Virus record (IMG/VR): IMGVR_UViG_3300034073_001649
Coordinates: 1-26,292 of that record
Length of the DNA: 26,292 bases
Strand: one strand, 5' to 3'
From: a virus
The translations under genes were made by a program, and so were the position numbers. The notes beneath the pieces are model-generated. The model ran no database searches, was not told the DNA's origin, and was given only the letters and a program-made list of their open reading frames with translations. This document shows positions 3,497-24,498 of this stretch, one piece after another (position 1 is the stretch's first letter; each line of letters opens with the position of its first letter).

Positions 3497-3536
3497 GCAA
3501 CGAGCAAGACCGCCGCACCATCTTCCGCTTGCAGGA
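3493..3536 (+). repeat. 44-base direct repeat, copy A
   Basis: It is identical to 4443-4486. It encodes the SNEQDRRTIFRLQD head of two different array genes. The perfect identity contrasts with the diverged sequence that follows. Confidence 0.9.
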
Positions 3537-3818: not shown

Positions 3819-4204
3819 GGCAGCCTACCCGATACGATGTCGGAATGAAGGAGGAAAGGTGCGATAAGACAGGATTTTACGCATCCTTTCCGTGGGTCTA
3901 TCCATCCGATGATGGAAAGTATGTCTTGCACGCCGACTACGCCGCCCTCCAAGCCGAGAACGAGCGGCTGAACGAGCGTGTTAGGATAAAGTTTGAAAAG
4001 ATTGAAGACCCGATGGATGAATACCTCAACCAAGTGCTAAGGAAGAACTGTGCAAAGTTGGAAGCCGAGAACGAGCGGCTCCGCAAGGCGGGGGATGCTC
4101 TGGTTTTTGCAAATGAAGGTTTCATCTACGGGCATCCATACACCACAAAACAAGTTCTTGCGGCAATTTATGAATGGTCCGCCGCCAAGGGGGTGCAGCC
4201 GTGA
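3815..4204 (+). CDS. coiled-coil protein of the cassette array (3)
   Basis: The protein has 129 residues from GTG 3815 and is the longest array member. The head, MRQPTRYDVGMKEERCDK, is followed by DDGKYVLHADYAALQAENER, a long coiled coil, a second LEAENERLRKAGDAL, a C-terminal YTTKQVLAAIYEW and the tail SAAKGVQP. Forty bases (3930-3969) are identical to 4286-4325 in the next gene. The second coiled-coil block resembles the one in the gene at 4443, including the GCGGGGGATGC stretch. The two internal copies of AENERL suggest lengthening by recombination between repeats. The function is unknown. Confidence 0.75.
   Translation: MRQPTRYDVGMKEERCDKTGFYASFPWVYPSDDGKYVLHADYAALQAENERLNERVRIKFEKIEDPMDEYLNQVLRKNCAKLEAENERLRKAGDALVFANEGFIYGHPYTTKQVLAAIYEWSAAKGVQP
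3930..3969 (+). repeat. 40-base direct repeat, copy A
   Basis: It is identical to 4286-4325 and encodes ADYAALQAENERL in gene 3815-4204. The sequences on both sides of the two copies differ. Confidence 0.9.
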
Positions 4205-4446
4205 GCCAGCCCAAGCGATACGCATTGCGACTGCCAGACATCTCCTACGGAACCGAGGAAAGTCCGAATGGCGAGTATGTCCGCTACGCCGACTACGCCG
4301 CCCTCCAAGCCGAGAACGAGCGGCTCCATGCAGACAACAATGTTCTGCTGAACCCTGAAAAGTTTCCTCACAGGTTCGCAGAGACTTGTTTCATTGCTGG
4401 ATACAAGCAGGGCATCAATGATGCTTTAAAGAAAGAGCAGTCGTGA
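4201..4446 (+). CDS. coiled-coil protein of the cassette array (4)
   Basis: The protein has 81 residues from GTG 4201 (GTGA overlap with the previous stop, AAGGGGG upstream). The head SQPKRYALRLPDISYG is followed by NGEYVRYADYAALQAENERL and a C-terminal part, FPHRFAETCFIAGYKQGIND, which differs from its neighbours. The middle block is a near-copy of the one in gene 3815. The end, KKEQS, is encoded by a degenerate junction (4428-4446) that keeps only GCAG.CGTGA, so it does not carry the KGVQP tail. The function is unknown. Confidence 0.75.
   Translation: MSQPKRYALRLPDISYGTEESPNGEYVRYADYAALQAENERLHADNNVLLNPEKFPHRFAETCFIAGYKQGINDALKKEQS
4286..4325 (+). repeat. 40-base direct repeat, copy B
   Basis: It is identical to 3930-3969 and encodes ADYAALQAENERL in gene 4201-4446. 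Confidence 0.9.
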
Positions 4447-4486
4447 GCAACGAGCAAGACCGCCGCACCATCTTCCGCTTGCAGGA
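4443..4486 (+). repeat. 44-base direct repeat, copy B
   Basis: It is identical to 3493-3536, about 950 bases away, in the same orientation. The following bases differ at once (GATGAA here, GACGAT in copy A). Confidence 0.9.
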
Positions 4487-4760
4487 TGAACTGCGGCTGG
4501 CGAAGGAGGCCAACGCCGCCCTCCAAGTCGAGAACGAGCGGCTTGATAAATCAAACACATCGCTTCTCGGAACAATAGACATTATTGACGACAAGTATGG
4601 TGAACTCCAAGCCGAGGTCGAGCGGCTCCGCAACGCGGGGGATGCGATGGAAAATGAGTTGTTCCGTGTTATTCTTATGGAACTTCCAGGACTTGAAAAA
4701 GAGGACATCAACAACCAATACATCGCCGATTGGCGAGCCGCCAAGGGGGTGCAGCCGTGA
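4443..4760 (+). CDS. coiled-coil protein of the cassette array (5)
   Basis: The protein has 105 residues from GTG 4443 (GTGA overlap). It repeats the SNEQDRRTIFRLQDE head of gene 3493 with 44 identical bases. It then has AALQVENERLDKS, YGELQAEVERLRNAGDAM and a distinct acidic C-terminal stretch, VILMELPGLEKEDINNQY, before the tail RAAKGVQP. Three coiled-coil blocks of slightly different sequence make this the most diverged array member. The start is preceded by the degenerate junction, with AAAGAAAG instead of AAGGGGG. Confidence 0.75.
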   Translation: MSNEQDRRTIFRLQDELRLAKEANAALQVENERLDKSNTSLLGTIDIIDDKYGELQAEVERLRNAGDAMENELFRVILMELPGLEKEDINNQYIADWRAAKGVQP

Positions 4761-6092: not shown

Positions 6093-9000
6093 TCATTTCT
6101 TCTTCTTGGCGTCTGCATCCGCCTTCTTCTTTGCGGTTTCCTCGTCGTCGTAGATTCCGATGATAACCCTGTAAGGATTATACAGCCTGAACTTGTTCTT
6201 TGAGTATGCGATGATGTATCCGTCAAGCCTAGTCAGAACGGAACTGTTTCCAACCGAGACCTTCTTCCAAGGTGCTGATGAGGTTGTTGGCTTTTGGTTC
6301 ACACTGAACATCGGCACATTGTTCGAGCCAACGCCTTCTTGTTCTGGCTCTGGTTCAAATCTTGGCTTCCGAAGTTGGCTTATGTCTATTGGCGAACCAA
6401 AGGATTTCTGGTTGTCATTGTATGATGCAATGGACGGGTTCATTTCCATCCTCATTTGCATTTCACGCCTTGCCACAGACGCCAGAGGCGAGTCGGCGTT
6501 TTGGATAATCACACCCTGTGCCTCCCCAGCCTCATCAACATAAACCTTCATTATGACTGGCCTTCCGTCTTCAGTCAGGCTTTCGTGGCCCGACTTCGGG
6601 TAAACCTTCATTGTGTAAAGGCCAGCCTCAAGTCCGCTGTGCTCGCTGTCGAAGGAAAGCCAAGCCTTGCCAGAGAAGGCGGATTTGTTTCCTGCATGCA
6701 TGAACTCTGAGTTCCAAGCCTTGCCCCCGTATTCAACCGACTCGTACTGAACGCCGTTGTTCAACTTAAAGAACTGCATGCTCTTGCCAACGGCAGTGTC
6801 CTTTAGTTTGCTTAGGCTATCTCCCTCTGGAAGAACAAACCTAGTGCCACGAATTCTGATGAATTCATTAGAATCAAAGGCATCCTGTTGAGTCCCGCTT
6901 GCCAGTTCGACATATTCTTTTGCTGCCTCTAGTGCGTCAAATCCAGAGACTAGGTATTCGGCAAAGCCCACAACATCAGGATAAGATGAGGAATAAACCT
7001 CTTTTGTTACCTTGCTGTTAAGCCACTTGATAAGCGTTGGTTTAGCCTGAATCCTAGATGTTGTGTGAGTTTGGTATTCGGCCCCAGAAAGGAAAAGTGC
7101 AAATCTTTTTGCGGCCCTAGTCCAACGCTCCTCGATTCCACCAAGCAAGCGTTTTGCGGCTTCTGGCGTGATGGCGTTGGCAAACATACGCATACCGACA
7201 ATTTGCTCGGCACTTTTCCTTATGTTTTCACCAAGCAATCCAAGGTCTATGTCCTTCACATAATATTGCCTGTCGTGCCAAGGTGCCAATGTCTTGAGGT
7301 CAACATTTGAACCAGCCTTGTTCATGAAGTTTATCAGGTCAAAGCCAGTATCAGCGTCCGAGACGATTTTGATAGGAGAATTATCCGAATCCACGCTAAC
7401 GCCGAGGCTTTCTTTTGTGTACTTCATTAGCAAATCGTAAAACCCAGTGCTAAGAATTGGGCCTCCGTCTGGAGATTTCATCATGATTTTCTTCCAGATA
7501 CTGCCGTACACTTTCTCGGCCTCCTTCATTCTTTCGACAGCCAAAGCCTGTTCTTGCGTAAACACTGGCGTGTCTCCTTTGTAAACCTGTGTGACCCCAA
7601 GTGGCTTGTAGGCGGAAGCAAATGTCTTCGGCAATATTTCGTTGTAAATAATGGCGGCTTTCCTTGCACTCAACCCGCTTCCAGTACCGCTATCAAGGCC
7701 ATTGGGGATAACGATTTCCTTGGCACCTTTGATTAGTGCGTCCCTTAGAAGAACTCTTGCAAGAAGAAGACCCCACTCGTTCGTGTTGGCAAAAGGAAGG
7801 TTTGCCATTCTATGCAAGTCCTCGATTTCGTTTGGGTCCAAAGACATTTCCCTCATCTTGCTCTCAGTGTCGCTAGAAATCTTGAACGCATCCTTGACGA
7901 TGGTCATGGCGATACTTCTTGCTGCTGTCTCTTGTTTAACTGACCCCTGAACAGCACCATCAATGTACCCCTCTGTTTTTCTTCTGAAATGGCCCCTTTC
8001 ATCATTTTGAAGTCTTTGGTAAGCCTTGTAAACATCAGAGTCGTTTCCATCAGGACGCCTAGTGGCCTCAGATAGTTTCATTTCAAAAGCAGCATTTGAT
8101 GCGGAAGGAGACCTCTTTGAAACCAACAGAAGGGAGGTGGCATATTCACTGTCAAACGCTGTCAGTTCCCTGAACAAATTAACAACTGCGTTGTCAAGAA
8201 CATCTCCTCTGTAAACAATGTTATTTCCGCCAACCCTGTCGCTAAACGCCTGTGCGTAGTTTGGATAAACGCCCTTCTTGTACAGTGCTGATGGCGATGT
8301 GTGTGCCTGAGTCGAGAAACCCTCAATCGCCGCCTTCATGCTGCTGTAAAGCCTTGCCAGCGGGAATTGGCTTTTACCGTAGTCTGGGCCTCTGCTGTGT
8401 CCCTGAAACCTTTGCAACAATGCACCTGATATGCTTCCGCCGTTTTGGTAATGCTCTATCATACTTAGGGACGATTGCAGTGAGCCGTAGTCTTGCCTCA
8501 GGAACATATTCATCTCAGACCACTCACCAATTACGAACGGCTTGCCAATGCTTTCGGCTGTCCTTGCAACACCGACTTGAGCAGCCAAATCCTGCGGACT
8601 ATGTGTAAGGTTTCTTTGGTTCTTGTCTAGGGTGTGACGCAGTTGAGATGGAAGCCCGTTCCTCCAGTACATTTTCTTTTCAGAGGAAGAAAGACCGTTG
8701 TAAAATTCATACCTGACATTTCTTCTGTCAACGTGGACATCGGTAATTGTTTTGAACAGGCTTTTCTTTTTTGCTGGGTCGATTGAAGCAGCCTTGCTCA
8801 GTTGGTTTTCCCAGAAGGGTGAAATCTTGCCGCTTTTGAGTGCATCAAGTGCAGACAAGCCGTGCTTTGTTGTCATTCTTTTCCAGACCAAATCAACCAC
8901 ATCCCCTATTATTCCATCAACGATATGGTCTCCAAACTGCATCCGCCCGAAACTGACGCCCTCAGCGTTTCTGTTAACAAGAGGTGACGACCTAATCATC

Positions 9001-12000
9001 ATCTTTGGATACGTGAGCCTGACGATGTATTCCACGTCTGATTTGCTAATCTTATCGTTGCCGAGGGAAAGGGATTCAATAGACCTAGCCAAAGGCGAGT
9101 AATCATACGCCTTGTTGCCAACAGAAAACGAGGATGCGTTATCTAGGTATTTTATCACCTCGGCAACCTCAACCTCGCGACACTCATCCTTAAGCCACTG
9201 TTCGAAAATTTCAACTGGCTTATCTCCGAGACCCTCGCAAAAGTCGCCTATATCAAAGGAGTTCTCAGGATTAACATTTTCAATTATTTGTTGTGTAACC
9301 AGTTGCTCGTATCTTTTTACAAGCCTGTCGAAAGAACGTGCACCGTCCTTAATCCCGAAGGCAGAAATGGCCTTCATCAAACCTAGATGCTCTTTTCTGC
9401 CTGACTGAAAAATTGTGTCAACGGCATCAGACAGAACGTTGGAGTCAGTAGTTGAGACGTCCATCAAGTTAGAAACATTCGGGTCAAACCTCTTAAGCAC
9501 CGAAGTCAAAAGCAAAGACCTAGTGCTGTCGCTAAGTTTATGTTTTTTAAGAGGCCCAGTTCCACCCTTCAGTGCGTAGCCAAGTGCAATTTGTGCATCA
9601 TTGGCAAGATTGTCGTAATCGGTTTCGGAGACATTGAAATCGTCAACTAGCCAATAAAGAGCCTCCCCGTAGTTTGAGGCTGCGTACTCCGTTTCGGCAA
9701 GAAGCCTTTCATAACCAACACGAAGCGGCCTTGTCACACCCTCTGCGGCCTTGATTAATGGCATTGCATTGAGCCTGTTTGTCACCGCGTACTCGTAAAG
9801 ACCTCCAAGCATTCTTGGGGTGTCCTCCCTTTTGAATGAGGCTAACGCTGACATCTCTGGGTCAAAACCGCTGTCCCTGTGATAAGACCATTCTCTAAGC
9901 ATCCATTCATTAAGTCTGGTGAGTGACGATTCAATGGAAGGTTCTAAGGTTGAGGTTGTTTTTTCAGAAATAAGTTTTGATACAAAAGGAAGAATCTCCT
10001 TGCTTAATTTATCTATTTTTTCCTCAGACCTAGATTCAATGACCTGCTCTGCGTTTTGGGCGTTTACCTTGTTGTTGTTTGATTGCAACTCCTCTGCGTA
10101 AACAAACGAAATTCCCTTCATGGTGTCCCTGTATGTGAACCTTGCGTGTGCGTAAGTGGAGACATCGATTTTTTTATTTGAATCCAAGACGTGATTTGAA
10201 CGGTCAACGGAGGGATGATATCTTGGATTCGTAGAATGCACCGTAAGGTTTCCGTAGGATTTGTATTTCTTGTCTAGAGTGAATTTCTTTCCACCCTCTG
10301 AAACATCGAATATGCTATCCCTTCTTGCCGTGACCCCCATTGCGTAAGTCTTGACGAACTCCATAAGTTCAACCGCGTTTAACTTCGGGTCTTTGCCGTT
10401 CACCTTTGGCTTCTTGGCCTGTTCCTGAAGGTATCTGTTGAGTCCAGTGATTTTCGCTTCCTCCAAGACCTTGACGCCCCTGTTGTGTGTGTTCTGAAGT
10501 TCCTTGAGGAAGTTCTTCGCGGATATGCCATTTGGGAACCTTGAAATGATTTCAGCCGTAACGTCTGCAAGGTTCGCCTTGAAGGTGTCAACATAGGCTA
10601 GGCTCTTAAAGGCGGTCTGTGCTGACTTTTCCGCGTCGTTCACGAGCGTCTTGAAATTGTCGTCAAAATACGGGCCTCTGCTGTCAATCGGACCCCAAGG
10701 ATAAACCGATTCGTCTAATGCGTTGATTATAGGCACATCGGCATAATAATCCTTGTACAGTCTCAATAACGCATCTCCAGCCTCTTCCAGTCTGTTTGAG
10801 CGATAAAGTTCATAGGCTTCCTCAACTTTTGAAAGTGTTGCCAAAGACCTGAGTCTAAACTCGTAAGCCTCGCGGACATGGGCGGCTGGATAAGCATCGG
10901 TGTCAGTGGAAAGTCCAGCGTCAATGATATCCCTCTTATAAACAGCCTCCTCTGCTTTTATAATCAAACTTGCAACGTCATTTTGCCAATTCGAGGAATA
11001 TGACTCATATGTTTTTGAATCAGTAAGCGAATCAACAGCATTTCTGGCATTCCTGCTAATGGCTGTGAGTTCATTGCTTCTGTCCCTAGACAACGAAAGC
11101 ATGCTTTCCGCCTTTTCGTTGAAGTCCTTGAATTTTTGCAAGAACTCAGGGTCGCTTGAAGCCCTCTGCTGCAGTTCGGCGTTGTGCTGGTCTCCGTCCC
11201 ATCCGAACTTAATCTTCCAATTTTGACCAGTTATGCCTCTTATGAATTCCCTGAACTCTATTGCTTCCTTGGTCCAAGCCAGCGTAACAAATGGCTTGGC
11301 GTCGCCGTAGTCACGGTCAAACGAAGGACTTCTTTCGACAACGACAGCCGTAAGCATGCCTCCGCTGAGTTTCTCCCAGTTTTCCGCCACCTTGGTTATG
11401 TTGTTTATGTCGTAATATTTTTCCCAAGTAATCTGCTTTCCAAGCAATGAGGAATACCTTCTTACCGCTTCCGCATCCCATTTCGCATTAGGCTTATCGC
11501 CTCTCAGAAGGGTCACGTGTTCCTCTGAAATCATTTCCATTTCACGCTTGTAACCATTATAATTAAAAACGTCGTCGAGTTTTCTTGTTAAATAAAGGTC
11601 GTATGGGTCCAGAGAGTCTGGTCTTGAAATTATTTGCTCACCGTTGATTGTCGATGTTTGGCTAAGAACCCAGTGCATTATTCCATCGGTGCTAGTTAGG
11701 GATGTGTCTGACTGTGCGTGTCTATAATTGCCGTAATTTCTCGTGATATAATATCGTCCTTCTTTCTTCAGGTCTTCCATGAAGTTGAGAACATGGTCAG
11801 CAATCTTCGACTCGATAACCCCGACTGAAAGATTCACAAAAGCATCGATGTTCGACTTAATCAACTCGCTTTGTTCCTGTGAAAACTTGGCGTTCCACTC
11901 CTCCTCTGATAGTTTAGGATTTTCATCCACAACCTTCTGCGAAGCCTCCTTCTGCTTCAGGAAAAGAAGAACCATGTCCTGAAGGCTGACCTTATGTGGG

Positions 12001-15000
12001 TCTATGCTTGCTCCGACTGGCCTGAACAGCGGCCCTTGCAGGAAGAAATCCGTTGGGTTCGGGGCTAGCGATATGACGGTTTGTGCCACTCTCCGCTTAA
12101 CGAAATCATCCTCGCTTACATTGGATATGCTGTACCTACGAAGTTCCGAAAGCCTTGCCAAGCCTTCCTCGCCCTGAGTTTCCCTTAGGTCTCTTGGCTT
12201 TGAGTACCTGCTGGCTTCGGTGGAAATGTCTCCAACCTTTCTTGGGATTCTTGTTGAGGCGTAATCGGCGGCTTTCTGCATGGTTATGTCCACGCCGTCG
12301 GAATTGCCACCCCTGTTCAGCAGAAGCGGACGGACATCCAAGTATTCGCCGTTCTTGATTTCAAAGTTTGAGTCCAGTGCAAGAAGCGATGAATCGGCAA
12401 AAGCCTTGCCGTCTTGAATCGAGTCAAAGAACGCTGGGTCAAGCGGAACAAGTTCGACGCCCTTGACGCCATCCATGTCAACCATGTCCTTCAGGAACCA
12501 TTTCGCACCAGACTTTATAGCCATCTCCATGTGGGCCATCTGTGACTTCCTGAAAAAGTTCTCGTCACCAAACATTCTAGATGCCTCATCTGGAGTTGGT
12601 GCTCTGTAATAATAAACTGGAGCGTCGCCGCCAAGCCCAGCAATCCACCTGCTCATGGCTGGCATTCCAGACGGAAGCCTGATGTCAGAGCGTCTTGCCA
12701 CTCTGCCTGAGTTGACTTGAAATGAAAGGGAGTCCGCTATCTCGCAATATGGGCCAAGCGACGACGGTCTTTTCAGCCCCTCCTTGTTTCTGGATGGCGT
12801 GAACCTTTGGTTTTTTCTGTAAAATTCCCTGTGTGTTGTCAAAGACCCAAGCGAAAATCTTGTGTCAACGGCTGGCGTGGTGGCAAGATATGCAAGCAAT
12901 CCAACTTTCTTTCCGACAAGGATACCGTTTTGGCTTGGCAGTTCGCCGCCGCCAAGTGCCGAGATAACTGAACGAAGGAACTGCTTGCTTGCGGAGGCGT
13001 CCTTTGCCGCAACTTTTTCCTCCATGTTAAGCGAGAACTTCGGCCTTCCGCTTTGGTCAACAGGAGCAACATCGCTGCTATAAGCGAGCAAATCCCTATG
13101 AAGGATTTCATCGTAAGCCCACACGGGGATTTCGGCGTCTGCTCCGATGGCCTCCCTGATTGCAGAGGTCTGGTTCCAAGGAACCCCAGAGTCCATCTCC
13201 TGAATTATTCTTCTCCTAAGTTCAGATGCATCAACGTTTGTGAGCGAGAAGTTCGCCATCTTTGTGACGGCGTTGAATCCCTCCTTTTGAATGTCTGGGT
13301 AAACGGAAGCCCTTTTCGTGAAGTTGTCGTCAAGTGCGGCCTCGACCTCCGCAACGGTCTTGTACGAGCCAATCTTTTCGCCGTTTTCATCGAACACGAT
13401 GTTTACCCCTTTTCTTGAGACAACCTTGTGGCCCATCTTCCCCTTGTAAACATCTCCAGCCTCTGATGAGGTCTTCTCAAAGTTGCTTAGGCTGAAGTTT
13501 CTTGCGATGTCCCAGAAGGCGTTTTCGTGATTGTATTTGTAATTTGTGCCGTCGGTCTGAATGTTCAGCATCCTTCCGATGCTAAAGTCGGTGATTGACG
13601 AAAGCATGCCTCTTGGAATTTCGTCCATCGGCCTGTTTGCGTAGGGAAGGTCTTGGCTCTTTGCGAAACCAGCAATCTGATGCATGACGTCCCTCTTGAA
13701 CGAGCCGTGCTCCTGCCATATCGACTGGGAGCCAAGTTGACGCTCAGGAACGCTGTGGTCGAGCGACATGTACGGCAGGTAGTTCTCGAAGAAATCCCTA
13801 GCAAGTGCCTCAGTGCTGTGCCAGATGGCACGAACCTCTGGACGCAGGAACATCTCGGCCACACGCCTTTCGACAACCTTGAGGTCGATTGAGCGAACAT
13901 TGAACTTGTGCGTCCCGTCCTCGCCAACGGCGAAGTCAAGCCCAGCGAGAAGGAACCTTCTGTTCTTAATGGCAACTTTGTTGCCCCTGACACGCGGAGG
14001 ATTCGGACCGATGTCTGTTTCCATCGAGGCACCGAAGTAAGTTGTCTCAAATACGTTCGGCATCCCGTTCTGCCAGTTGTCTCTGGCCCTTTGAAGAAGT
14101 TTTATCTTCTCGGCCATGCCGCCAGACATCAACCCAGCCTGAACCAGCGTATCCAGTTCGAAGTCGCTGAACCTGCCTCTGTGAACTCCATCTGGACCCT
14201 TGACGGACGTTTTTCTAGAAGGGTCGATTGCGTCCAGAACCTTCGCCATCTCCCTGCCGCGTCCAGCCATCTCGACGGCGATTTCCTTGGCCTTCTTGAT
14301 TCTGACCTTCTTTGTCTTTGGGTCGAAGCCGATTAGTTCATCCGAACCGTTCCTAGTCAGGTCGTCAATGAAGGACTTGGATGCGTTGGATATGTCGATA
14401 AACCCGTTGTTCTTGAGGCTGTGCGAGGCACGAACAAGGTCTTCCAAAAGGTAGTCGAGTGCACCGACACGCACCCTCTTGCCGTCCTTCATGAACACGG
14501 ATTCAATCTCAATACCCTTCCTGAGTTTGTGGAAGTCGAACATCGTGCCATGCCTTGTGACTCTGGATTCCCAGTGGTCGGCCCAAGCGGAACCAGCGAT
14601 ATCCATCGCCGCCTTTAGACCCTCAAGTTTGCCGCCGAGGAGCCAATACTCCATTGGCTTGTCGTTCGCCCAAAGGCTGTAATAGTAAGAACCGAACTCC
14701 TCCGATATGTAGGAGATAAGGTCGTCCTGAGTCTTCGTCAGTTTGGTTGGCTTCCCAACGTCTAGGTCGTCGCCGTAAGAACGCACCGCCTCGATAAGTT
14801 CAGCCTTTGTTCTGTTGATTGTCGCCCTGTCGTTCGCATTGTCTGGGTCAACAAGCGAAAGATAGTTCCTGATTACGAGGTCGTTCTGGAGCGATGAATA
14901 GTTCTTGGCCCAGTCAACCAGTTCATTGGTGGGAACAAGTCCCCTCTGGACAAGGATACCGTTTTGGTCCCTGACACCGAAGGTCGTCTCCCTGAAAAGG

Positions 15001-16832
15001 CGTCCGTAGTGCTGGCCGAGAACCGTGTCCCTCATGAGGACGTGATGGAACTCGTGTGCCATGGTCAACCCCTTGAACTTCTTGCTTGGGTTGAAAAGGT
15101 TGTCCAGATTCAGGCCGATTTCCACGGTTCCGTCTGTAAGCCTTTTGATTGTGTAGGCATCCGTTGCCTCAAATGAGGCTACGTCTGGTCGTGCTGGGTC
15201 GCGTTTTGAGAAGTTTGCGTAACCTGAGTCGGCACCGTAGAAAGCCTTCATGTCGTACGCTGGAATGACCGACTCCGCCATGACAAATGTCCTGCCCATC
15301 TGGAGCCTAGACATTGTATCGCCATTAGGATGCGAAAAAACCATCGACCAGTTGTGTGCTAGGTTCGGCTTGGATTTCCTCAGGTTCTCAAGCCCGAATT
15401 GCATCTGAATCTGTTCTCTCCATCTCCTTGAGGCACCGCTGGCGTCCAATATGGTTCTGGCAGTCAGCGAACCAGCGGCACCCAAGATTCCGCCAACGCC
15501 GATGCCAGCACCAAGCCCGTCCATCTTTGCGTTAGCGTAACCCATGCCTCCAGATATGATGGCACCGCCAATCGCACCAGTCACCACGTCGTACGAGTAG
15601 GAAAGCACTGGCTCAACGGTATCAAGTGCACGAAGGAAGATTTTTGTCTTGTCGGAAAGACGCCCGTTTGTCTTCTTCAGGGCTTCCTCGGTTTCCATCA
15701 AAGCCTGTCTAGCGTAGCCAAAGACACCCTTGTAACCCTTCTTGTTGACAATCTGCTCACCAGTCAGCCTGAGTGCGGTTCCGACAGACTCAAGTATTGA
15801 GCCTCCGACGGAAGCAGCCGCAATCGGGCCAGCATACGGGATGCTAATGCCAGCGACGTGTGCAGAGGCGGTTCCGATTCCAGCGACACGGGCGAACTTG
15901 GTCGCATCCTCTGCGGCGATACCAGTTCCTATTTCAACAAGACCAGCGGCTTTTCGTACGCCCATGTCGATTGTGTTGCTGACCGCCCCGCCGATTGCCT
16001 CAAGCGGAACGCCAGCACCCCACTTCAAGGTTCCCCCAAGCACACCAGAGTAAATGGTCTGTGCCTTCATCTGTGCCCTTGAAAGCATGTCGCCAGTGTT
16101 CAGAATCTTTCCAGTTCCACGCATGAGCGTGGCGGCGGCTGGGCCTAGGAACGGAGGGTCCGCGACCCAAGTCACGACCTGAGTGACCTCTGGGGAGATG
16201 AAGTCCTTGCTCATGACAAGCGTTTCCTCGCCCCTGTAAAGCCTGTTGGATTTTGCGTTCGTTTTCCTAGCCTCCACATAGCCGTTATAACGCTCGGCTG
16301 GAGTGCCCCTGTTTCGAATCACATTGTTGAGTTTAAATACGATTGAATCTGGAGTCTCGGAGTCAACCGCCATAAGGACGAACTCTCTCGTCGCTTGCCA
16401 AAAGCCCTCTGTGATTGACGCAGGAAGTTTGGCAAGAGAGCCAAGCGGGTCTTTCGCAAGTGCCGTACCGCCCTGTGCAACCGATTCCTTAAAGGCATCT
16501 ATGCCTTCGCCCAACGACTTCCAAAATTCGCCCTCCTGCTCGTTCTTCCAAGGCTCCCAGACAAGGTACTGGTCATATGACATTATGAAGTTCTCGTCCT
16601 CCCTCGCCCTAGCGTCCAGTTCCTGAGGGGTTGGCGGGGCGGTTAGTTTAGCGAGAACCTCTTCTCTTTGTTCTGGAGGAGTTTTAGCCAGAATAGCGTC
16701 GAATTCTGGGTTCCCAGTAGAACCTACTACTGGTTTGTTATCCTCACCAATGATTACGCCTTTTGGAGTTTTTGGCGAAAACTCCTGAGGAAGCGTTACT
16801 GAGTACAGGTCATTGTCGTCTGGCACTTCCAT
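6093..16832 (-). CDS. giant (3579-residue) virion protein, probable DNA-ejection/internal protein with zincin motif
   Basis: One unbroken 10.7-kb frame. The start ATG 16832 is two bases after the previous stop. Residues ~215-360 and ~412-460 hold Gly/Ala-rich hydrophobic segments with GxxxG spacing, as expected for proteins that enter a membrane during DNA ejection. HEFHH at 593-597 (TMAHEFHHVLM) is a zinc-metallopeptidase motif, and EE at 711-712 (YISEEFGSYY) could supply the third ligand. The middle is long, polar and helical without a motif I recognise. Residues ~3000-3090 (NLPFANTNEW, LLRDALIKGAKEIVIP, IYNEILPK) resemble a module of phage polyvalent proteins. The C-terminus is a small strand-rich unit followed by a lysine tail. 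Size and place after two internal-protein candidates match the T7 gp16 position, but no lytic transglycosylase motif and no N4-type RNA polymerase motif was found. Confidence 0.75.
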   Translation of the reverse strand: MEVPDDNDLYSVTLPQEFSPKTPKGVIIGEDNKPVVGSTGNPEFDAILAKTPPEQREEVLAKLTAPPTPQELDARAREDENFIMSYDQYLVWEPWKNEQEGEFWKSLGEGIDAFKESVAQGGTALAKDPLGSLAKLPASITEGFWQATREFVLMAVDSETPDSIVFKLNNVIRNRGTPAERYNGYVEARKTNAKSNRLYRGEETLVMSKDFISPEVTQVVTWVADPPFLGPAAATLMRGTGKILNTGDMLSRAQMKAQTIYSGVLGGTLKWGAGVPLEAIGGAVSNTIDMGVRKAAGLVEIGTGIAAEDATKFARVAGIGTASAHVAGISIPYAGPIAAASVGGSILESVGTALRLTGEQIVNKKGYKGVFGYARQALMETEEALKKTNGRLSDKTKIFLRALDTVEPVLSYSYDVVTGAIGGAIISGGMGYANAKMDGLGAGIGVGGILGAAGSLTARTILDASGASRRWREQIQMQFGLENLRKSKPNLAHNWSMVFSHPNGDTMSRLQMGRTFVMAESVIPAYDMKAFYGADSGYANFSKRDPARPDVASFEATDAYTIKRLTDGTVEIGLNLDNLFNPSKKFKGLTMAHEFHHVLMRDTVLGQHYGRLFRETTFGVRDQNGILVQRGLVPTNELVDWAKNYSSLQNDLVIRNYLSLVDPDNANDRATINRTKAELIEAVRSYGDDLDVGKPTKLTKTQDDLISYISEEFGSYYYSLWANDKPMEYWLLGGKLEGLKAAMDIAGSAWADHWESRVTRHGTMFDFHKLRKGIEIESVFMKDGKRVRVGALDYLLEDLVRASHSLKNNGFIDISNASKSFIDDLTRNGSDELIGFDPKTKKVRIKKAKEIAVEMAGRGREMAKVLDAIDPSRKTSVKGPDGVHRGRFSDFELDTLVQAGLMSGGMAEKIKLLQRARDNWQNGMPNVFETTYFGASMETDIGPNPPRVRGNKVAIKNRRFLLAGLDFAVGEDGTHKFNVRSIDLKVVERRVAEMFLRPEVRAIWHSTEALARDFFENYLPYMSLDHSVPERQLGSQSIWQEHGSFKRDVMHQIAGFAKSQDLPYANRPMDEIPRGMLSSITDFSIGRMLNIQTDGTNYKYNHENAFWDIARNFSLSNFEKTSSEAGDVYKGKMGHKVVSRKGVNIVFDENGEKIGSYKTVAEVEAALDDNFTKRASVYPDIQKEGFNAVTKMANFSLTNVDASELRRRIIQEMDSGVPWNQTSAIREAIGADAEIPVWAYDEILHRDLLAYSSDVAPVDQSGRPKFSLNMEEKVAAKDASASKQFLRSVISALGGGELPSQNGILVGKKVGLLAYLATTPAVDTRFSLGSLTTHREFYRKNQRFTPSRNKEGLKRPSSLGPYCEIADSLSFQVNSGRVARRSDIRLPSGMPAMSRWIAGLGGDAPVYYYRAPTPDEASRMFGDENFFRKSQMAHMEMAIKSGAKWFLKDMVDMDGVKGVELVPLDPAFFDSIQDGKAFADSSLLALDSNFEIKNGEYLDVRPLLLNRGGNSDGVDITMQKAADYASTRIPRKVGDISTEASRYSKPRDLRETQGEEGLARLSELRRYSISNVSEDDFVKRRVAQTVISLAPNPTDFFLQGPLFRPVGASIDPHKVSLQDMVLLFLKQKEASQKVVDENPKLSEEEWNAKFSQEQSELIKSNIDAFVNLSVGVIESKIADHVLNFMEDLKKEGRYYITRNYGNYRHAQSDTSLTSTDGIMHWVLSQTSTINGEQIISRPDSLDPYDLYLTRKLDDVFNYNGYKREMEMISEEHVTLLRGDKPNAKWDAEAVRRYSSLLGKQITWEKYYDINNITKVAENWEKLSGGMLTAVVVERSPSFDRDYGDAKPFVTLAWTKEAIEFREFIRGITGQNWKIKFGWDGDQHNAELQQRASSDPEFLQKFKDFNEKAESMLSLSRDRSNELTAISRNARNAVDSLTDSKTYESYSSNWQNDVASLIIKAEEAVYKRDIIDAGLSTDTDAYPAAHVREAYEFRLRSLATLSKVEEAYELYRSNRLEEAGDALLRLYKDYYADVPIINALDESVYPWGPIDSRGPYFDDNFKTLVNDAEKSAQTAFKSLAYVDTFKANLADVTAEIISRFPNGISAKNFLKELQNTHNRGVKVLEEAKITGLNRYLQEQAKKPKVNGKDPKLNAVELMEFVKTYAMGVTARRDSIFDVSEGGKKFTLDKKYKSYGNLTVHSTNPRYHPSVDRSNHVLDSNKKIDVSTYAHARFTYRDTMKGISFVYAEELQSNNNKVNAQNAEQVIESRSEEKIDKLSKEILPFVSKLISEKTTSTLEPSIESSLTRLNEWMLREWSYHRDSGFDPEMSALASFKREDTPRMLGGLYEYAVTNRLNAMPLIKAAEGVTRPLRVGYERLLAETEYAASNYGEALYWLVDDFNVSETDYDNLANDAQIALGYALKGGTGPLKKHKLSDSTRSLLLTSVLKRFDPNVSNLMDVSTTDSNVLSDAVDTIFQSGRKEHLGLMKAISAFGIKDGARSFDRLVKRYEQLVTQQIIENVNPENSFDIGDFCEGLGDKPVEIFEQWLKDECREVEVAEVIKYLDNASSFSVGNKAYDYSPLARSIESLSLGNDKISKSDVEYIVRLTYPKMMIRSSPLVNRNAEGVSFGRMQFGDHIVDGIIGDVVDLVWKRMTTKHGLSALDALKSGKISPFWENQLSKAASIDPAKKKSLFKTITDVHVDRRNVRYEFYNGLSSSEKKMYWRNGLPSQLRHTLDKNQRNLTHSPQDLAAQVGVARTAESIGKPFVIGEWSEMNMFLRQDYGSLQSSLSMIEHYQNGGSISGALLQRFQGHSRGPDYGKSQFPLARLYSSMKAAIEGFSTQAHTSPSALYKKGVYPNYAQAFSDRVGGNNIVYRGDVLDNAVVNLFRELTAFDSEYATSLLLVSKRSPSASNAAFEMKLSEATRRPDGNDSDVYKAYQRLQNDERGHFRRKTEGYIDGAVQGSVKQETAARSIAMTIVKDAFKISSDTESKMREMSLDPNEIEDLHRMANLPFANTNEWGLLLARVLLRDALIKGAKEIVIPNGLDSGTGSGLSARKAAIIYNEILPKTFASAYKPLGVTQVYKGDTPVFTQEQALAVERMKEAEKVYGSIWKKIMMKSPDGGPILSTGFYDLLMKYTKESLGVSVDSDNSPIKIVSDADTGFDLINFMNKAGSNVDLKTLAPWHDRQYYVKDIDLGLLGENIRKSAEQIVGMRMFANAITPEAAKRLLGGIEERWTRAAKRFALFLSGAEYQTHTTSRIQAKPTLIKWLNSKVTKEVYSSSYPDVVGFAEYLVSGFDALEAAKEYVELASGTQQDAFDSNEFIRIRGTRFVLPEGDSLSKLKDTAVGKSMQFFKLNNGVQYESVEYGGKAWNSEFMHAGNKSAFSGKAWLSFDSEHSGLEAGLYTMKVYPKSGHESLTEDGRPVIMKVYVDEAGEAQGVIIQNADSPLASVARREMQMRMEMNPSIASYNDNQKSFGSPIDISQLRKPRFEPEPEQEGVGSNNVPMFSVNQKPTTSSAPWKKVSVGNSSVLTRLDGYIIAYSKNKFRLYNPYRVIIGIYDDEETAKKKADADAKKKK

Positions 16833-16834
16833 TG

Positions 16835-19800
16835 TTACTTGTTTTTCTGTGCCTTTGCACGTGCCGTGTCAATATCCCTTTGCAGATTATCGGCAGGATT
16901 GCCAAATGTAATTGTAACGCCAGAGAGTTTGCCAGTGTTAACAATGCTTTGTTCGGACCTGTGAATAAGCATTTCAAGTTTCTTTAATTCCGCTGGAGGC
17001 CAAGAGAATATGTCAGTTGGGTTCGATATGAATCTTTTGAGAATTTCGATTTGCTCATAGTTCGAAGGGGCACCTCCGCCAGCCATCTGAGTTCTAAGTC
17101 TGCCTCTGACGTCAATCGCAAGAGCCTCGGCCTCGGCCTTGTCGGTTGGCGAGAACCTTGAGCCTACGCTGCCAGCAAGGTCAACAAGTCGCCTCAGGCC
17201 AGCGTTCGCCATTGTCGTGTCAACAACCTCCTTGTTGAATTCTTCCCTAGCCTTATCCGAACCCCTGAAGAAACCACGCATGTTTATTCTGTATGCGTTA
17301 GGGTTGTTGTCGTCCGACGTCACAAAGGTGTCATAAACATTGCCAGAAGCCTTCTGTTTTGCCAGCCAAGCCTCCTCTGTCTCGCTTCTTTGGAGTTGAG
17401 GAAGAACCTTCCAAGAGACCATGCCGTTCGTGATTTCCTTCTGGAACGTGTAGCCACCCTGCTGAATCAGCACAGGCTTTGAGCCTTCGGCATGCTTTGC
17501 GTACATCTCGTCTATGTTCGGCGGCGTGTAGCCAAGCCTGTCCGTCACGAGCCGAACAAAATCGTCTTTGACCTGCTCTTCGGTTTTCTTGGCAACGACA
17601 TCCTTTGTGCCAATACCAATCTTACCTATGGCAATCCCTCCGTATGGCTTTCTTGGGGAAATGCCGTACTGCCTTTCAAATGCGGACATCTTTTCCTCGG
17701 CAACATCGACGTTTGCCTGTGCCTGAAGCCGAAGTTCGGTGCCCTTTATTTTTCTTGCGTCAACGACCCTTTGCCTAGCCTCGGCTTCTCCCGCTGGACC
17801 TCTGTATGCGTCCCAGAAGTTCGACATAATAGAGAACCTTCCGATTTTCTCGTGCCAACTTCCCAGCATACCCCTGTCAAAGTACTCCTGTGCCGAAACG
17901 CCGTCTGGAGAATAAAGGGGAGCCGCAATGTAGCGTGTTGTAAGAACCGTTGACGCAGCAGCCGTTTCAGTAACCGCCATAACCTGAGGTATTCTTGTGG
18001 CAAGCGTTGCCGCCGACCCAGAACCCAACATGCTGCCGATTGTGGCTCCAGCACCTACTAGGAAGCCGCCGACCCCGCCAATGCTTGCGGCTGTTTCCTG
18101 AGTTTCCCTGTCCGCACCAACAAGCATCGCACCAGTTCCTCCTGCGTACTGACCAACGGAACTGCCGCTTATCCCAGTGCCAGCAATCCTCAATCCTCCA
18201 CCGATAAATCGCTTTGTTCCAGCCCAGAGGCCAGTCTTCGCTGGAGGAGTTTGTGCTGGCGTCCCAGATGCGGGTGCAGTCCCAGTCGCACCTGCGGCCT
18301 GTGGTGCCGCTGTGGTGGGTGCCCTGCCGACGCCAAGCGGTCTGCCAGCGTCGTCAACCAACTCAAGTTGACCGACCAACTTGGGCGGCGGATAGAAATT
18401 CAGGTGAAGTTGCCTTGGCGTTCCCTTTGGAATCGGAGGTGGCGTGGACGACGCTGGCACAATTTGTGCCTTTGCGATTCCCCCCATGAGCGATTTTCTG
18501 GCGGCTTGATATCCCTTGACCCCAGCATACGAAAACAATGCAGACGCAGCCGCAGGTCCGCCCCAAGCCTCGGCAACCTTGAATAGCAAATCCTTGTCTG
18601 CATCCAAAGCCTTGTCGAGTCTCTCAAGGGCTTTTTCCATCTCAAGCGGGTTCCCCTTGCGTTTGGCGTTAACCAAGTCCTCCGTGGCCCGACCAGCGTA
18701 AACAGCACCAATTCTGCCCATGACCTGTTTCTTGATTTCCTCGTTGGCCTCGGCTGGTGTTTTGCCAAGTGCCACAAGATTCTCAAAAGTCTCAGACCAT
18801 TCCCTGAAGTCCATGACGCTTGTGACCTCCATCTGGCTCTCAAGTGGAGCCTCCTGTCTTCTTGCTTCCCTTTTTGCCGATGCAGACGAAAGCCTTTCCT
18901 GTGCAGTTTCTAGCACTTTTTTTGCCGCATCCATCTTTCTGTCCATTTCCTTTGGGTTCGTGAACCTGAGGTTCCTCTTGTCGGACTCAAGTGCCGCAAG
19001 TGCGTCAGTCGCAGAGGCAACCTCTGCTTGCAATGCGTCGATTTCCGCCTTCTTAGGCACGTTCTGGCCCTCAAGCCATGCATCTACCGTGTACGGCCTT
19101 GAACCTTCAAGTCCGCTTACGCCGCCGACAGTCGCACCAGCGGCCAATGCTCTCCACTCGTTAACCTTCTCCGCGTACCTAGTGTATTCCTCTTTCTGCT
19201 CTGGCGTGGCTTTCGCAAAAGCATCCGCAGCCCTTCTTTCGTATATGGAGTCGATTGTGCCAGAAATAGACCGTGTGGAAGTCCTCATTCCCAACGCACC
19301 GCTTTCGCTGCTGTATCCACCAGTGATTGCGTTCACAATTCCTAGGGATGCCGCCGCCGACATCCTTGAGGTGACTCTGCTCATCAGCGAACGCTCGGTT
19401 GAGTCCGCCAACTTCTGTGTTGCGGCACGTGCGATGCCGTAGAGTTCATGGTGCTTTTCCAAGAACATGTTTCTTCTGGCATGCGTAATCTGCCTTGCAA
19501 GACTTTCGGCCACCTCAGGCGGTGCGTCCTTGGCGGCTTCCATTGTTTTTGTGGCCACTTCCTCGAAAATCTCGTACCTGCTTCTCGTTTCCTTGATTGC
19601 ACCAGCGGCCTTGGCTTTTTCTGTCGAAGCCCAGATGTCGTCAAAGTTCTGTCTGAAGTCTTTGCCGAAATCCAAGGCAACGTTCATGCCAGCGGCGATT
19701 TCGACTGTCGCAGTTGGCTTCAGGCCGCTTTTAGCCGCCAGAGCCGCCTGTTGTTCGACTCCGCTTTGCGTTTCCTTGAAAAGACCGAACTTGGAACCAA

Positions 19801-20398
19801 ATGTCTGTGCCTCTCCAGAAAGCCTTGCGGCCAATGTTCTAGCCTGAGTCCTGCTCAACTTTGTCTCCCCAGACACGTAACCTTGGAATTCCTGAAGAAG
19901 TGGTGCCATGTTTTCTATCATTCTGGCATTCCTAGGGTCTGCGGAAATCATCCTACCCATTTCCATCAGGGAGCCACCAGCCGTGCGAATGAGCGTGTCA
20001 GTCTCCCTTTCTTGCTGTTGTAGTTGATAGGGAGTTGGAAGTTGACCAAGAGTTATTTCAAGCCCTTTGATTGCGGCCAGTTTTTGCTGTGTATTTCCGC
20101 TTCTTGCTTTTTGAGCCGCCGCCGCCGCTGGCATAACAGCCTTCTGAAGTTCGGTGTCTGCGTCCGCAAGATAAGGCAAAGCCCTAGCAATCGTATTGTC
20201 CAGTCCAGCACTAGCCTCTTCGTCAACTGTCTTGAGCCTGTGGTATTCTGCTATTCCGTTTCTAAGTCCTTCTCCAATTGCTTTGCCAGCCTGAAGTACG
20301 CCTTCCATCATCATGGCGTCGCCACGGGCGGCACCAGCAATCAAGTCAGATGTTGCTGGCTGAATTTCCCCTCCTTGGTATTGTTTGAAAATAGACAT
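16835..20398 (-). CDS. large internal virion/ejection protein candidate (1187 residues)
   Basis: I chose ATG 20398; the frame can be extended three codons to a TTG at 20407. The N-terminal ~440 residues are Ala-rich and helical (for example MPAAAAAQKARSG). A coiled coil with EIDALQAEVASATDALAALE lies at ~455-520, a Pro/Ala/Thr linker (TTAAPQAAGATGTAPASG) at ~695-735, and a Gly-rich hydrophobic region (IGGVGGFLVGAGATIGSMLG) at ~730-840. The last 300 residues are mixed. This mix of long helices and a membrane-like Gly-rich segment resembles the second ejection protein (gp15-like) of short-tailed phages. The genes on either side are the 282-residue and 3579-residue candidates, giving the three-gene set expected of an ejectosome. 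No enzyme motif is evident. Assignment is by architecture, not by sequence match. Confidence 0.65.
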   Translation of the reverse strand: MSIFKQYQGGEIQPATSDLIAGAARGDAMMMEGVLQAGKAIGEGLRNGIAEYHRLKTVDEEASAGLDNTIARALPYLADADTELQKAVMPAAAAAQKARSGNTQQKLAAIKGLEITLGQLPTPYQLQQQERETDTLIRTAGGSLMEMGRMISADPRNARMIENMAPLLQEFQGYVSGETKLSRTQARTLAARLSGEAQTFGSKFGLFKETQSGVEQQAALAAKSGLKPTATVEIAAGMNVALDFGKDFRQNFDDIWASTEKAKAAGAIKETRSRYEIFEEVATKTMEAAKDAPPEVAESLARQITHARRNMFLEKHHELYGIARAATQKLADSTERSLMSRVTSRMSAAASLGIVNAITGGYSSESGALGMRTSTRSISGTIDSIYERRAADAFAKATPEQKEEYTRYAEKVNEWRALAAGATVGGVSGLEGSRPYTVDAWLEGQNVPKKAEIDALQAEVASATDALAALESDKRNLRFTNPKEMDRKMDAAKKVLETAQERLSSASAKREARRQEAPLESQMEVTSVMDFREWSETFENLVALGKTPAEANEEIKKQVMGRIGAVYAGRATEDLVNAKRKGNPLEMEKALERLDKALDADKDLLFKVAEAWGGPAAASALFSYAGVKGYQAARKSLMGGIAKAQIVPASSTPPPIPKGTPRQLHLNFYPPPKLVGQLELVDDAGRPLGVGRAPTTAAPQAAGATGTAPASGTPAQTPPAKTGLWAGTKRFIGGGLRIAGTGISGSSVGQYAGGTGAMLVGADRETQETAASIGGVGGFLVGAGATIGSMLGSGSAATLATRIPQVMAVTETAAASTVLTTRYIAAPLYSPDGVSAQEYFDRGMLGSWHEKIGRFSIMSNFWDAYRGPAGEAEARQRVVDARKIKGTELRLQAQANVDVAEEKMSAFERQYGISPRKPYGGIAIGKIGIGTKDVVAKKTEEQVKDDFVRLVTDRLGYTPPNIDEMYAKHAEGSKPVLIQQGGYTFQKEITNGMVSWKVLPQLQRSETEEAWLAKQKASGNVYDTFVTSDDNNPNAYRINMRGFFRGSDKAREEFNKEVVDTTMANAGLRRLVDLAGSVGSRFSPTDKAEAEALAIDVRGRLRTQMAGGGAPSNYEQIEILKRFISNPTDIFSWPPAELKKLEMLIHRSEQSIVNTGKLSGVTITFGNPADNLQRDIDTARAKAQKNK

Positions 20399-20416
20399 GT
20401 TATCCAATTGTGATGT

Positions 20417-21265
20417 TCAACCTTTGGCCATTTTAGCACCAAAACCTTGAGAGAAGCCTCCCAAAACCGACCCAGCAAGGCCCATAACGGCACCAAATCT
20501 AGCGTTGGATGAGTTCGCGTTAGCGATTGCGGCATCCATCTGTTCCTTGCGGTTTGATGTGATAAGTGCGGCGTTATAACCAGACTCTCCAGTGAACAGT
20601 TGAGGTCCAAGCCCCTGAAGCATGTTGCCAGCGGAGTTCATAAATGCCGCTGGGCTTGCGGTAGAAGCAACGCTAAGCATTGGTGCACCGAACATGTTCA
20701 TGGCGTTGCCAAATGAAGCCTCAGAAAGCCCGTATACATTGCTGGCGAAATTACGTCTTTCGGCTTCTCTTGCGTTAGCAAGGCTATTGCTTGAAAGAAC
20801 CTCAAGTGCGATTGCCTGATTGCCTCCTTGCATTCCCCTAGCCTGAGATGCGTACCTTGCCGCTTGCTCGGCTTGTCTTCTTTCTTCTGGCGTAAGAGAC
20901 CTTCCAGCCTGTAAATCAGACATCGCTTGCTCCTGTAACTTCGAGAGCAAACCAGTCGCCCCTCCCCCAAGAGACCTTTTGTAGATATCAGACGCAGATG
21001 TTCCTATGTCTTGCATCAGTGGTTTCAATGCCTGTTGCTGTTCCATGGCGATTCTTGATGCCGTTGGAATAGCCTTGCCGTACATATCCAGCATCGAGTC
21101 CATCTGGCCTTTCATCTTTTCGGCCTGTACTTGTTGCCAGATTGGTAGATATTGACGCTCAGCATCAATCAACTGAGGCATCATCTTCAATTGTGCCTTG
21201 ATTGCCCCCTCCATCTCGGTGGCGTAATCCCTTGGAGGAGGTGCGGATATTTTTTTACTTCCCAT
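20417..21265 (-). CDS. small internal virion/ejection protein candidate (282 residues)
   Basis: The start MGSKKISAPPPRDYATEMEG is of a type I associate with short-tailed phage internal proteins. Then comes a long helical, Gln/Met-rich central part (YLPIWQQVQAEKMKGQMDSM, LTPEERRQAEQAARYASQAR). The C-terminus is Gly- and Ala-rich and hydrophobic (FGAVMGLAGSVLGGFSQGFG). This layout (short polar head, helical body, Gly-rich end) fits a gp14-like first ejection protein, which forms the outer-membrane part of the channel. It overlaps the end of the 152-residue gene by 11 bases and is followed, 18 bases on, by the 1187-residue protein. No enzymatic motif is present. Confidence 0.7.
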   Translation of the reverse strand: MGSKKISAPPPRDYATEMEGAIKAQLKMMPQLIDAERQYLPIWQQVQAEKMKGQMDSMLDMYGKAIPTASRIAMEQQQALKPLMQDIGTSASDIYKRSLGGGATGLLSKLQEQAMSDLQAGRSLTPEERRQAEQAARYASQARGMQGGNQAIALEVLSSNSLANAREAERRNFASNVYGLSEASFGNAMNMFGAPMLSVASTASPAAFMNSAGNMLQGLGPQLFTGESGYNAALITSNRKEQMDAAIANANSSNARFGAVMGLAGSVLGGFSQGFGAKMAKG

Positions 21266-21713
21266 TGTTATAAAGTAGTTCGATGTATTTTTTTGTTATC
21301 TTGCGATGTACGCCATTTCTTAGTGCGTATTTTTCCTGATTGTCCCAATTTGGGTATCTTTTTTTGAATTTGTCTATAATTCTGTTCGTAGATTCCTTGT
21401 TGACAGAAAGAAAGTCCATTATGCAAATATCGCAATTTTCTTCATTTTCTTTGTTTGGAGGTAAAAACGAGAAAAACCAATCATCAGTTCCATCGTACTT
21501 TTTTTCAACAGGATACGCTATTCCAACACCACTGATGCCAAATTCATCCGAATCAACAAATAGGTACTCGAAAAAGTCTGCCCACTTAACATAAATTTCC
21601 AGTTCTCTGCCATGAAACCCAAAGACAGAACTATTTTTGCAAAATTCCTTTTTGGACTTAATAAAACCAGTTATTGAGTCTGTTGCAAAAGGCTTTTTGT
21701 GCAAACATTGCAT
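21255..21713 (-). CDS. AT-rich small protein of unknown function (possible gp13-like assembly protein)
   Basis: The protein has 152 residues from ATG 21713. It is rich in Lys, Asn, Phe and Tyr (KKRYPNWDNQEKYALRNG), and its DNA is plainly richer in A and T than the ejection genes that follow. The order GISGVGIAYPVEKKY, CDICIMDFLSV, then a basic helical end (RKITKKYIELLYNN) could be a degenerate acyltransferase-like fold, as in the small gp13-type gene that sits beside ejection proteins in some podophages. I cannot see catalytic or cofactor residues. Its place just upstream of the 282-residue gene, with an 11-base overlap, favours a virion-assembly role over an unrelated accessory gene. Confidence 0.6.
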   Translation of the reverse strand: MQCLHKKPFATDSITGFIKSKKEFCKNSSVFGFHGRELEIYVKWADFFEYLFVDSDEFGISGVGIAYPVEKKYDGTDDWFFSFLPPNKENEENCDICIMDFLSVNKESTNRIIDKFKKRYPNWDNQEKYALRNGVHRKITKKYIELLYNNGK

Positions 21714-22857: not shown

Positions 22858-24498
22858 TTAATTTATGTTTTGATTGTTTTTACCATGTGGTCTGGCTGTT
22901 ACAAATGTTGCTCTAATTGATGGTCTTCTGCTAGTTGCTTTGAGCCTAACTTGCAAGCCATATCCGATTTTTCGGACTGGATTTCTGCGTGTTGAGTCCT
23001 GTTCAGCGTCAGAAGGAGAGCCAAAGTCGTCAATAAGTGTACTTACGTCTGGGTTGTTTAATTCAGAATACGTTTCTATTGCAGAACCTGCTGGGCAAAG
23101 AAAATCGGTTTCAATTGAAGAAAAACGCTTATCGTTCATTGTATCAAATGTAAATCTTCTTGTAACAAGTTCGCCTTCTATAACTCTTTGCCTATAAATA
23201 GAACTTGCTCCAAGCGTAAACGGAAGTCTTACTGGAAGATATGGATGGCCTAAGTCTTCTCCGTGTTCATCCCAGTCATTTTCTTCCATTAAAAATACAC
23301 CGTCTGATGAATCAACAGCAAACAGGCGTGTTCTTGTCCCTCTTTTGGCTACTATAAATGAGAATGCATCAAACTCAGATGGATATACGTCAACAGACTC
23401 CCAAGACTTTAGAACGAAGTTATAAACAAGAACTGCGTTGTTCTTAGTGCTGTTATCAAGAGGAACAGCCAAATAATAACGACTATTCCAGTAAATTCCG
23501 ACCGATTTTTGTGCATGTTCTCTGTTTATTCTTTCAATTACATCGTTTATTGGTGCTGAAAGAGGTTCTGAAAGCGTGGTCAAACGCATCCCTTCTGCGG
23601 CACCAACTTGCTGTGGCTGAAGGAAATATATCCCAGTGTCTGAAAGGAACACGACGCCTCCAGCGACCTGAACGGCACTTTTCTTGGCAACACAGCCAAC
23701 ATCAACAGACATTGTTTGAAGAAATGCGTCGCTTGAAAGAGGGTCTCCTGTTGCGTATCTAGATGAACCTACATTGAGATAAAAAATCGAATTTCTCATC
23801 ATAACAAGAAACTCGTTCATCGTCCAAGGAACCACTGATACAAGTTCATCATTGCCGCCTTGATTTATTGTAAAGCAATCAAGAAGGTTGAACTTATCAA
23901 AGTCAAGGAAATTGCTTACACAAACAGTGTCCCTTTCTCTTGGAGATAACATTAGCGGAGGGTGCAACTTTCCGAGTGCAACCATTCTGTTTTGATAGTA
24001 CATCAGGCCAGAGCACCTTGGGAACTCATGACCACCAGAAGCAAGAAGAATGTTGAATACACCAGTTCCATATGTCCAAACAACTGTTTCTTTTGAATGC
24101 CCTCTGCTTATGTAAATCTTGTCCATTGCCTGAACAACGTCGCATCCAACGTTTGTATCTACCGTTTCTCCAACTGGAAAATCCCAAGGACCAGCCCACG
24201 CCCCTGTGTTTGGGTTAAATGTTTGAATGTTGGTTTTGTTTAAGGTTGGATTATGAACGACTAAAACAATGATTTCCTGACCATTTGAGTCAAGATAAAC
24301 ACCGCAACCGTTGATTGATTTTCCCTCAACGTCTGTGTCTGAAAACTTTTTCAAACCCTTTCTTACCGACGCAATTCCTCTGTCCAGCCTGAAGTTTTGA
24401 GATTTGCTCACATAGCCTTTGGGCAAAGCACTTGGATTGTCTCGGCTGTTAAGCCCGACAAAGAACAAATCTCCATCCCTCAGGTATTCAAGCGGCAT
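22858..24498 (-). CDS. tail nozzle / stabilisation-like beta-propeller protein
   Basis: The protein has 546 residues. The head, GLNSRDNPSALPKGYVSKSQ, and repeated strand blocks with turn motifs (VVPWTMNEFLVMMRNSIFYL, AVQVAGGVVFLSDTGIYFLQ, VGIYWNSRYYLAVPLDN) look like the propeller blades of podovirus nozzle/stabilisation proteins (P22 gp10 or T7 tail tubular B class). In these the block '..v..G.v.fls.dGiy.l' is characteristic. Such proteins close the distal end of the short tail. It starts at ATG 24498, overlapping the small membrane gene before it as ATGA, and is followed at once by a fibre-like gene. This arrangement fits a short-tail module. The C-terminal 100 residues are more variable. 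Confidence 0.72.
   Translation of the reverse strand: MPLEYLRDGDLFFVGLNSRDNPSALPKGYVSKSQNFRLDRGIASVRKGLKKFSDTDVEGKSINGCGVYLDSNGQEIIVLVVHNPTLNKTNIQTFNPNTGAWAGPWDFPVGETVDTNVGCDVVQAMDKIYISRGHSKETVVWTYGTGVFNILLASGGHEFPRCSGLMYYQNRMVALGKLHPPLMLSPRERDTVCVSNFLDFDKFNLLDCFTINQGGNDELVSVVPWTMNEFLVMMRNSIFYLNVGSSRYATGDPLSSDAFLQTMSVDVGCVAKKSAVQVAGGVVFLSDTGIYFLQPQQVGAAEGMRLTTLSEPLSAPINDVIERINREHAQKSVGIYWNSRYYLAVPLDNSTKNNAVLVYNFVLKSWESVDVYPSEFDAFSFIVAKRGTRTRLFAVDSSDGVFLMEENDWDEHGEDLGHPYLPVRLPFTLGASSIYRQRVIEGELVTRRFTFDTMNDKRFSSIETDFLCPAGSAIETYSELNNPDVSTLIDDFGSPSDAEQDSTRRNPVRKIGYGLQVRLKATSRRPSIRATFVTARPHGKNNQNIN

Follow-up and report, generated by a model that had tools for sequence, protein, structure and literature searches.

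A predicted zincin metallopeptidase domain in a giant polyvalent-type, probable ejection protein of a podovirus-like virus, and its possible part in self-processing

What is a single zinc-peptidase motif doing in a giant protein that a bacterial virus most likely sends into its host together with its DNA? The window, by which I mean the whole stretch of 26,292 nucleotides that was analysed (a 26.3-kb viral record), reads CACGAGTTCCATCAC on its minus strand at 15042-15056, and this translates to H593-E-F-H-H597 of a 3579-residue open reading frame. An earlier note on this DNA had picked out the motif and placed a metallopeptidase domain around it in the N-terminal third of the protein, with the glutamates at 711-712 as a possible third ligand; it favoured a wall-degrading domain, with peptidoglycan stems, host proteins or the virion protein itself as possible targets of a peptidase. 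The motif lies exactly where it was reported and is the only HExxH in the giant, compared with 0.05 expected from composition, and the longer string TMAHEFHHVLM is also present, spanning residues 590-600 and not 588-600 as given earlier. The giant has no match in Pfam, PHROGs or NCBIfam, apart from weak zinc-peptidase matches in Pfam, which for the window means DUF5700 (0.066). I will argue that the motif is probably the active site of a predicted zincin (HExxH...E) metallopeptidase domain, inside a giant polyvalent protein of a podovirus-like virion, that would cut its own chain, a reading to which I give a probability of roughly 0.55. The features discussed are collected in Table 1.

Table 1. 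Features of the window, with their positions and the basis on which each was assigned.
Feature	Position	Strand	Basis
3579-aa giant, polyvalent-type ejection protein with the motif	6093..16832	-	ORF
N-terminal region (residues 51-444), conserved, with a hydrophobic Gly/Ala-rich stretch	15501..16682	-	common to zincin-bearing relatives
Predicted zincin domain, ~residues 545-775	14508..15200	-	alignments, AF2, profile comparison, dN/dS
N575-x-D577, invariant pair, predicted edge strand ahead of the HExxH helix	15102..15110	-	alignments and AF2 model of L065
HEFHH, predicted zinc-binding motif, residues 593-597	15042..15056	-	H, E and H invariant in 11-sequence alignments
E711-E712, E712 the predicted third zinc ligand	14697..14702	-	E712 unchanged in all 11 sequences
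Candidate junction KFSLN, residues 1265-1269 (PFSVN in closest relative L004)	13026..13040	-	inside a poorly alignable linker
Faster-evolving cargo region, ~residues 1270-3507, no recognisable domain	6312..13025	-	comparison with L004; domain searches
Second candidate junction MFSVN, residues 3508-3512, ahead of the C-terminal module	6297..6311	-	analogy to the relatives alone
~48-aa C-terminal module, residues 3526-3573	6114..6257	-	common to zincin-bearing relatives; profile, blastp
1190-aa protein, probable partner ejection protein directly upstream of the giant	16835..20407	-	like T7 gp15 in position alone
282-aa protein, probable small internal/ejection protein	20417..21265	-	gp14-like by position; conserved across relatives
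Head-closure/tail-connector protein, anchor for finding relatives	22858..24498	-	phrog_3287, E 1.5e-7

Scans for close relatives with the whole giant or with the domain only returned nothing or just one near-twin contig (3300042691_009614, in the domain-only search); bacterial and archaeal genomes yielded none, PDB sequence searches gave no match, and neither did tblastn against named phages with the N-terminal 800 residues, the cargo or the 1190-residue protein as queries. An alignment of head-closure proteins, by comparison, reached 48 contigs. Among these is G006, whose giant-like protein aligns at its N-terminus with window residues 50-470, in two segments (best E 2e-10), and has HEALH where the window has HEFHH. 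With this N-terminus included, an alignment led to nine further contigs with N-terminal matches, eight of which extend through the domain and possess HExxH (HELDH or HELFH) without exception, the ninth (L067) stopping before the domain. The near-twin, G006 and these eight contigs form the comparison set over the domain, ten relatives or, together with the window, 11 sequences.

HExxH, which the earlier note had allowed might be missing from relatives, was looked for and stands in the same place in all ten (as HEFHH, HEALH, HELDH or HELFH), and the residues that are invariant in the 11-sequence alignments include N575, D577, H593, E594, H597 and E712 in window numbering, at a domain identity to the window of only about 17-25%, the near-twin excepted. 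The spacing from the motif to the glutamate ranges from 69 to 119 residues among the members, the window having 119, and because E712 is invariant while this spacing varies, the glutamate appears to have been kept despite changes in the loop. An independent profile comparison of the window pair with the other nine gave E 5.9e-5 and 65% probability over 67 columns around HExxH, stopping short of E712, whose placement comes from the multiple alignment; similarly, blastp of window residues 580-642 against L065 gave 38% identity (E 1e-5). The domain dN/dS against the near-twin (L004) is 0.026 and, judged by this ratio, the domain is under strong purifying selection. As for the fold, AlphaFold2 (AF2) gave a pLDDT of 32 for the window domain from two near-identical sequences, and for the L065 domain with all 11 sequences a pTM of 0.60, with pLDDT ~79-93 over residues 81-150. 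The L065 model runs from an N-terminal helix through strands and the HExxH helix to a later glutamate helix: a strand at 44-47 is equivalent to N575-x-D577, HELDH (59-63) lies on a helix at 57-83, and the alignment-based equivalent of E712 is residue 150 in a helix at 137-159. The two histidines, which the earlier note had conceded might turn out to lie apart in the fold, are thus carried on one helix in this relative's predicted fold, and this zincin-like layout, together with the invariant HExxH and E712, supports both the metallopeptidase domain and the third ligand that had been suggested. The named predicted viral structures nearest to the model are 'large polyvalent' or 'ART-PolyVal' phage proteins (E 1e-11 to 6e-4); no solved structure in the PDB matched it at E <= 0.001.

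The domain is one part of a larger design, since comparison with the relatives has shown, at the level of sequence, a conserved N-terminal core with the zincin, then faster-evolving cargo and then a conserved C-terminal module. Residues 51-444 are ~25-31% identical to the zincin-bearing relatives (E 1e-9 to 1e-30), identity to the near-twin falls from ~93% to ~40% at residue ~1250-1266, and a C-terminal module profile built without the window matches the window at 19.9 bits, compared with a best of 0.6 in 200 shuffles. An extra copy of this module near residues 1140-1180 was considered and dropped, the module profile giving no match there.

The gene neighbourhood suggests how such a protein would travel. 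On the minus strand the order is a small protein, fibre-like proteins, a head-closure-like protein, the 282-residue protein, the 1190-residue protein and the giant, with a weak spanin match downstream; the head-closure protein also matches an annotated head-closure Hc3 protein, the 282-residue protein matches relatives at the same gene position (blastp E down to ~1e-20), the 1190-residue protein has a weak local match to its equivalents in relatives, and in one relative (L002) a terminase and a major head protein lie upstream of the same gene block. This is the order of a podovirus-like ejection cassette, closed by the giant gene, and because of it the giant is read, from gene order only, as most likely a virion protein that is ejected with the DNA of a bacterial virus. 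Within the L002 head-closure protein (L002 10001-11656) there is also an HEFPH, which was set aside as a chance, non-conserved HExxH, the window counterpart reading HEFPR. Two other observations concern the neighbours: a 152-residue ORF without a Pfam match (21255-21713, minus strand) lies between a fibre-like gene and the 282-residue protein, and small neighbouring ORFs at 3493-4760 on the plus strand have LQAENERL-type coiled-coil stretches and AAKGVQP ends in common and look like duplicated small genes. The closest phages by head-closure protein (L007, L008, L014/L060 and L059, at 38-44% identity) carry in the same position giants of 1.9-2.7 thousand residues that lack HExxH and show no match by profile to the window giant, and because these zincin-less giants occupy the same place, the ejection giant appears to be replaceable wholesale within the phage group. 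Phage C75C1 and contigs G002-G005 also have giants that were rejected as homologues, since HExxH is missing from them and none of the profiles (N-terminal, zincin, C-terminal module) matched them significantly.

Seven relatives (L066 and L068-L073) share 76-96% identity over about the first 1060 residues and then carry different cargo, and in many comparisons similarity stops at the tetrapeptide R-[FWY]-M-P or picks up again a few residues from it; in these giants the tetrapeptide is found at about residues 957, 1062, 1520-1715 and 1850. Six of these seven giants contain [FWY]MP four times, against ~0.1 expected, and L066, truncated where its contig stops, contains it once. Of the 39 blastp breakpoints, 18 lie no more than 10 residues from an [FWY]MP, compared with a null mean of 2.2 and a maximum of 9 in 2000 trials; both counts are non-independent in that the compared sequences share ancestry. 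The arginine, the aromatic residue and the proline are written by differing codons and, because the codons vary, selection would seem to act on the peptide and not on a DNA recombination site; with the aromatic residue varying as well, R[FWY]MP as a mere recombination site was set aside. Cargo beside [FWY]MP recurs in the giants of other phages, and the relatives' cargo modules are 48-68% identical to parts of such giants, including a Planktothrix phage 'large polyvalent protein'. One module (L068 residues 1639-1905) shares ~48-68% identity with portions of proteins from Microcystis, Nostoc and Planktothrix phages and from ctQRb9, and more distantly it resembles proteins encoded by many Mycobacterium phages. 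In the literature searched, no paper joined RFMP with phage. The R[FWY]MP junction pattern is seen in the relatives only, and the FS[LV] junction of the window looks like a weaker counterpart: in the variable linker, window and near-twin both retain FS[LV]N, and [FY]S[LV] sites number 8 in the window giant compared with 3.7 expected (P 0.035). I would offer it only as a tentative proposal that the built-in zincin cuts at a short peptide code marking the junctions (R-[FWY]-M-P for one clade, an FS[LV]-type sequence for the window), releasing in the host the exchangeable cargo cassettes set between the ejection core and the C-terminal module.

In the mechanism that I have in mind, zinc would be held by H593, H597 and E712 with E594 as the general base, and the peptidase would cut its own giant chain in the linkers between modules, either as the virion is assembled or once the chain has been injected, so that the cargo modules come free of the N-terminal part. 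Self-processing is favoured because the zincin is in the conserved core, because of the junction statistics in the relatives and because of the common C-terminal module; of the peptidase targets that the earlier note had listed, the virion protein itself fits best, and peptidoglycan stems and host proteins are rated lower. Ejection proteins often do have muralytic domains, T7 gp16 being an example, and no lysozyme or transglycosylase is recognised in the cassette with Pfam, PHROGs or NCBIfam, so a domain that cuts peptidoglycan stem peptides during DNA ejection would have its attractions. However, the known peptidoglycan metallopeptidases (M15, M23 and M74) use other metal motifs. Moreover, no muralytic family is recognised here in these same libraries, the relatives by fold and by sequence are polyvalent proteins with exchangeable cargo and not muralytic enzymes, and Iyer et al. 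(2017; PMC5512222) give wall-breaching to lysozyme, SpoIID-like and DD-peptidase domains, all of which makes the wall-degrading role first suggested improbable.

A better contender, and a plausible one, though less likely than self-processing, is that the injected zincin acts as an effector on a host protein, for instance a defence or transcription protein, cleaving it early in infection: this is listed as an alternative for polyvalent metallopeptidases (Iyer et al., 2017), Peptidase_M91, which Pfam presents as an effector protein family, gives weak matches, and the domain is dispensable in the group, as the zincin-less giants attest, but effectors would be expected in the fast, exchangeable cargo and this domain belongs to the slow N-terminal core. 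The N4 virion RNA polymerase, the most thoroughly studied case for comparison, counts against self-processing, given that it has such a domain and yet is packaged uncut, and with its metallopeptidase-holding region needed for encapsidation (PMC5512222) it lends something to the thought that the zincin fold is a structural relic or assembly element on which packaging or ejection depends, its catalysis slight or absent; a purely structural role, however, would not need four catalytic and ligand residues to stay invariant at such low identity, and I consider it as improbable as wall opening. Self-cleavage by zincins of injected phage proteins was proposed in 2017 (PMC5512222), and a named cut site for it was not found in the literature searched. 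With its candidate cut sites, its naturally mosaic set of proteins and residues suited to mutation, this family opens the idea to direct testing, and it brings a zincin subfamily not recognised by current family libraries to a kind of viral protein, the polyvalent zincin proteins, that is predicted but little tested.

How, then, does this giant compare with what is known? Peptidase_M91 (PF14891) has weak profile similarity to seven of the 11 family members (best E 0.0077), the window protein itself having no match at E <= 1. The small, large and giant proteins following the head-tail connector genes recall T7 gp14-gp15-gp16, but no sequence match to the window proteins was found, and the giant far exceeds gp16 in size, carrying a zincin in place of a recognised lytic transglycosylase. 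N4 gp50 is likewise a giant injected podovirus protein with an HExxH domain, although its metallopeptidase lies towards the C-terminus (aa 2130-2448; PMC5512222) where the window zincin is N-terminal, and an RNA polymerase domain was not detected in the window giant. The closest likeness is to the polyvalent proteins, very large virion-associated proteins of mixed domains among which a zincin-like metallopeptidase is the commonest (Iyer et al., 2017). The window version differs from these in having no curated-score match in Pfam, PHROGs or NCBIfam, a long spacing between motif and glutamate and cargo with no recognised domain; where polyvalent proteins hold several disparate domains, the zincin alone is recognised in the window giant, further modules being seen in relatives, such as an ART-PolyVal-like stretch in L073 (3e-5, below the curated cut-off). 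What they have in common is the HExxH helix, here predicted, with a later glutamate helix after a small beta sheet, set as one domain in a very large, probably virion-borne protein whose gene lies close to late genes, here adjoining head-closure, fibre and internal-protein genes, with cargo that is modular in the relatives. By these sequence features, the zincin of the window giant is best seen as a new member of an already known kind, the metallopeptidase domains carried by injected polyvalent proteins (Iyer et al., 2017; PMC5512222).
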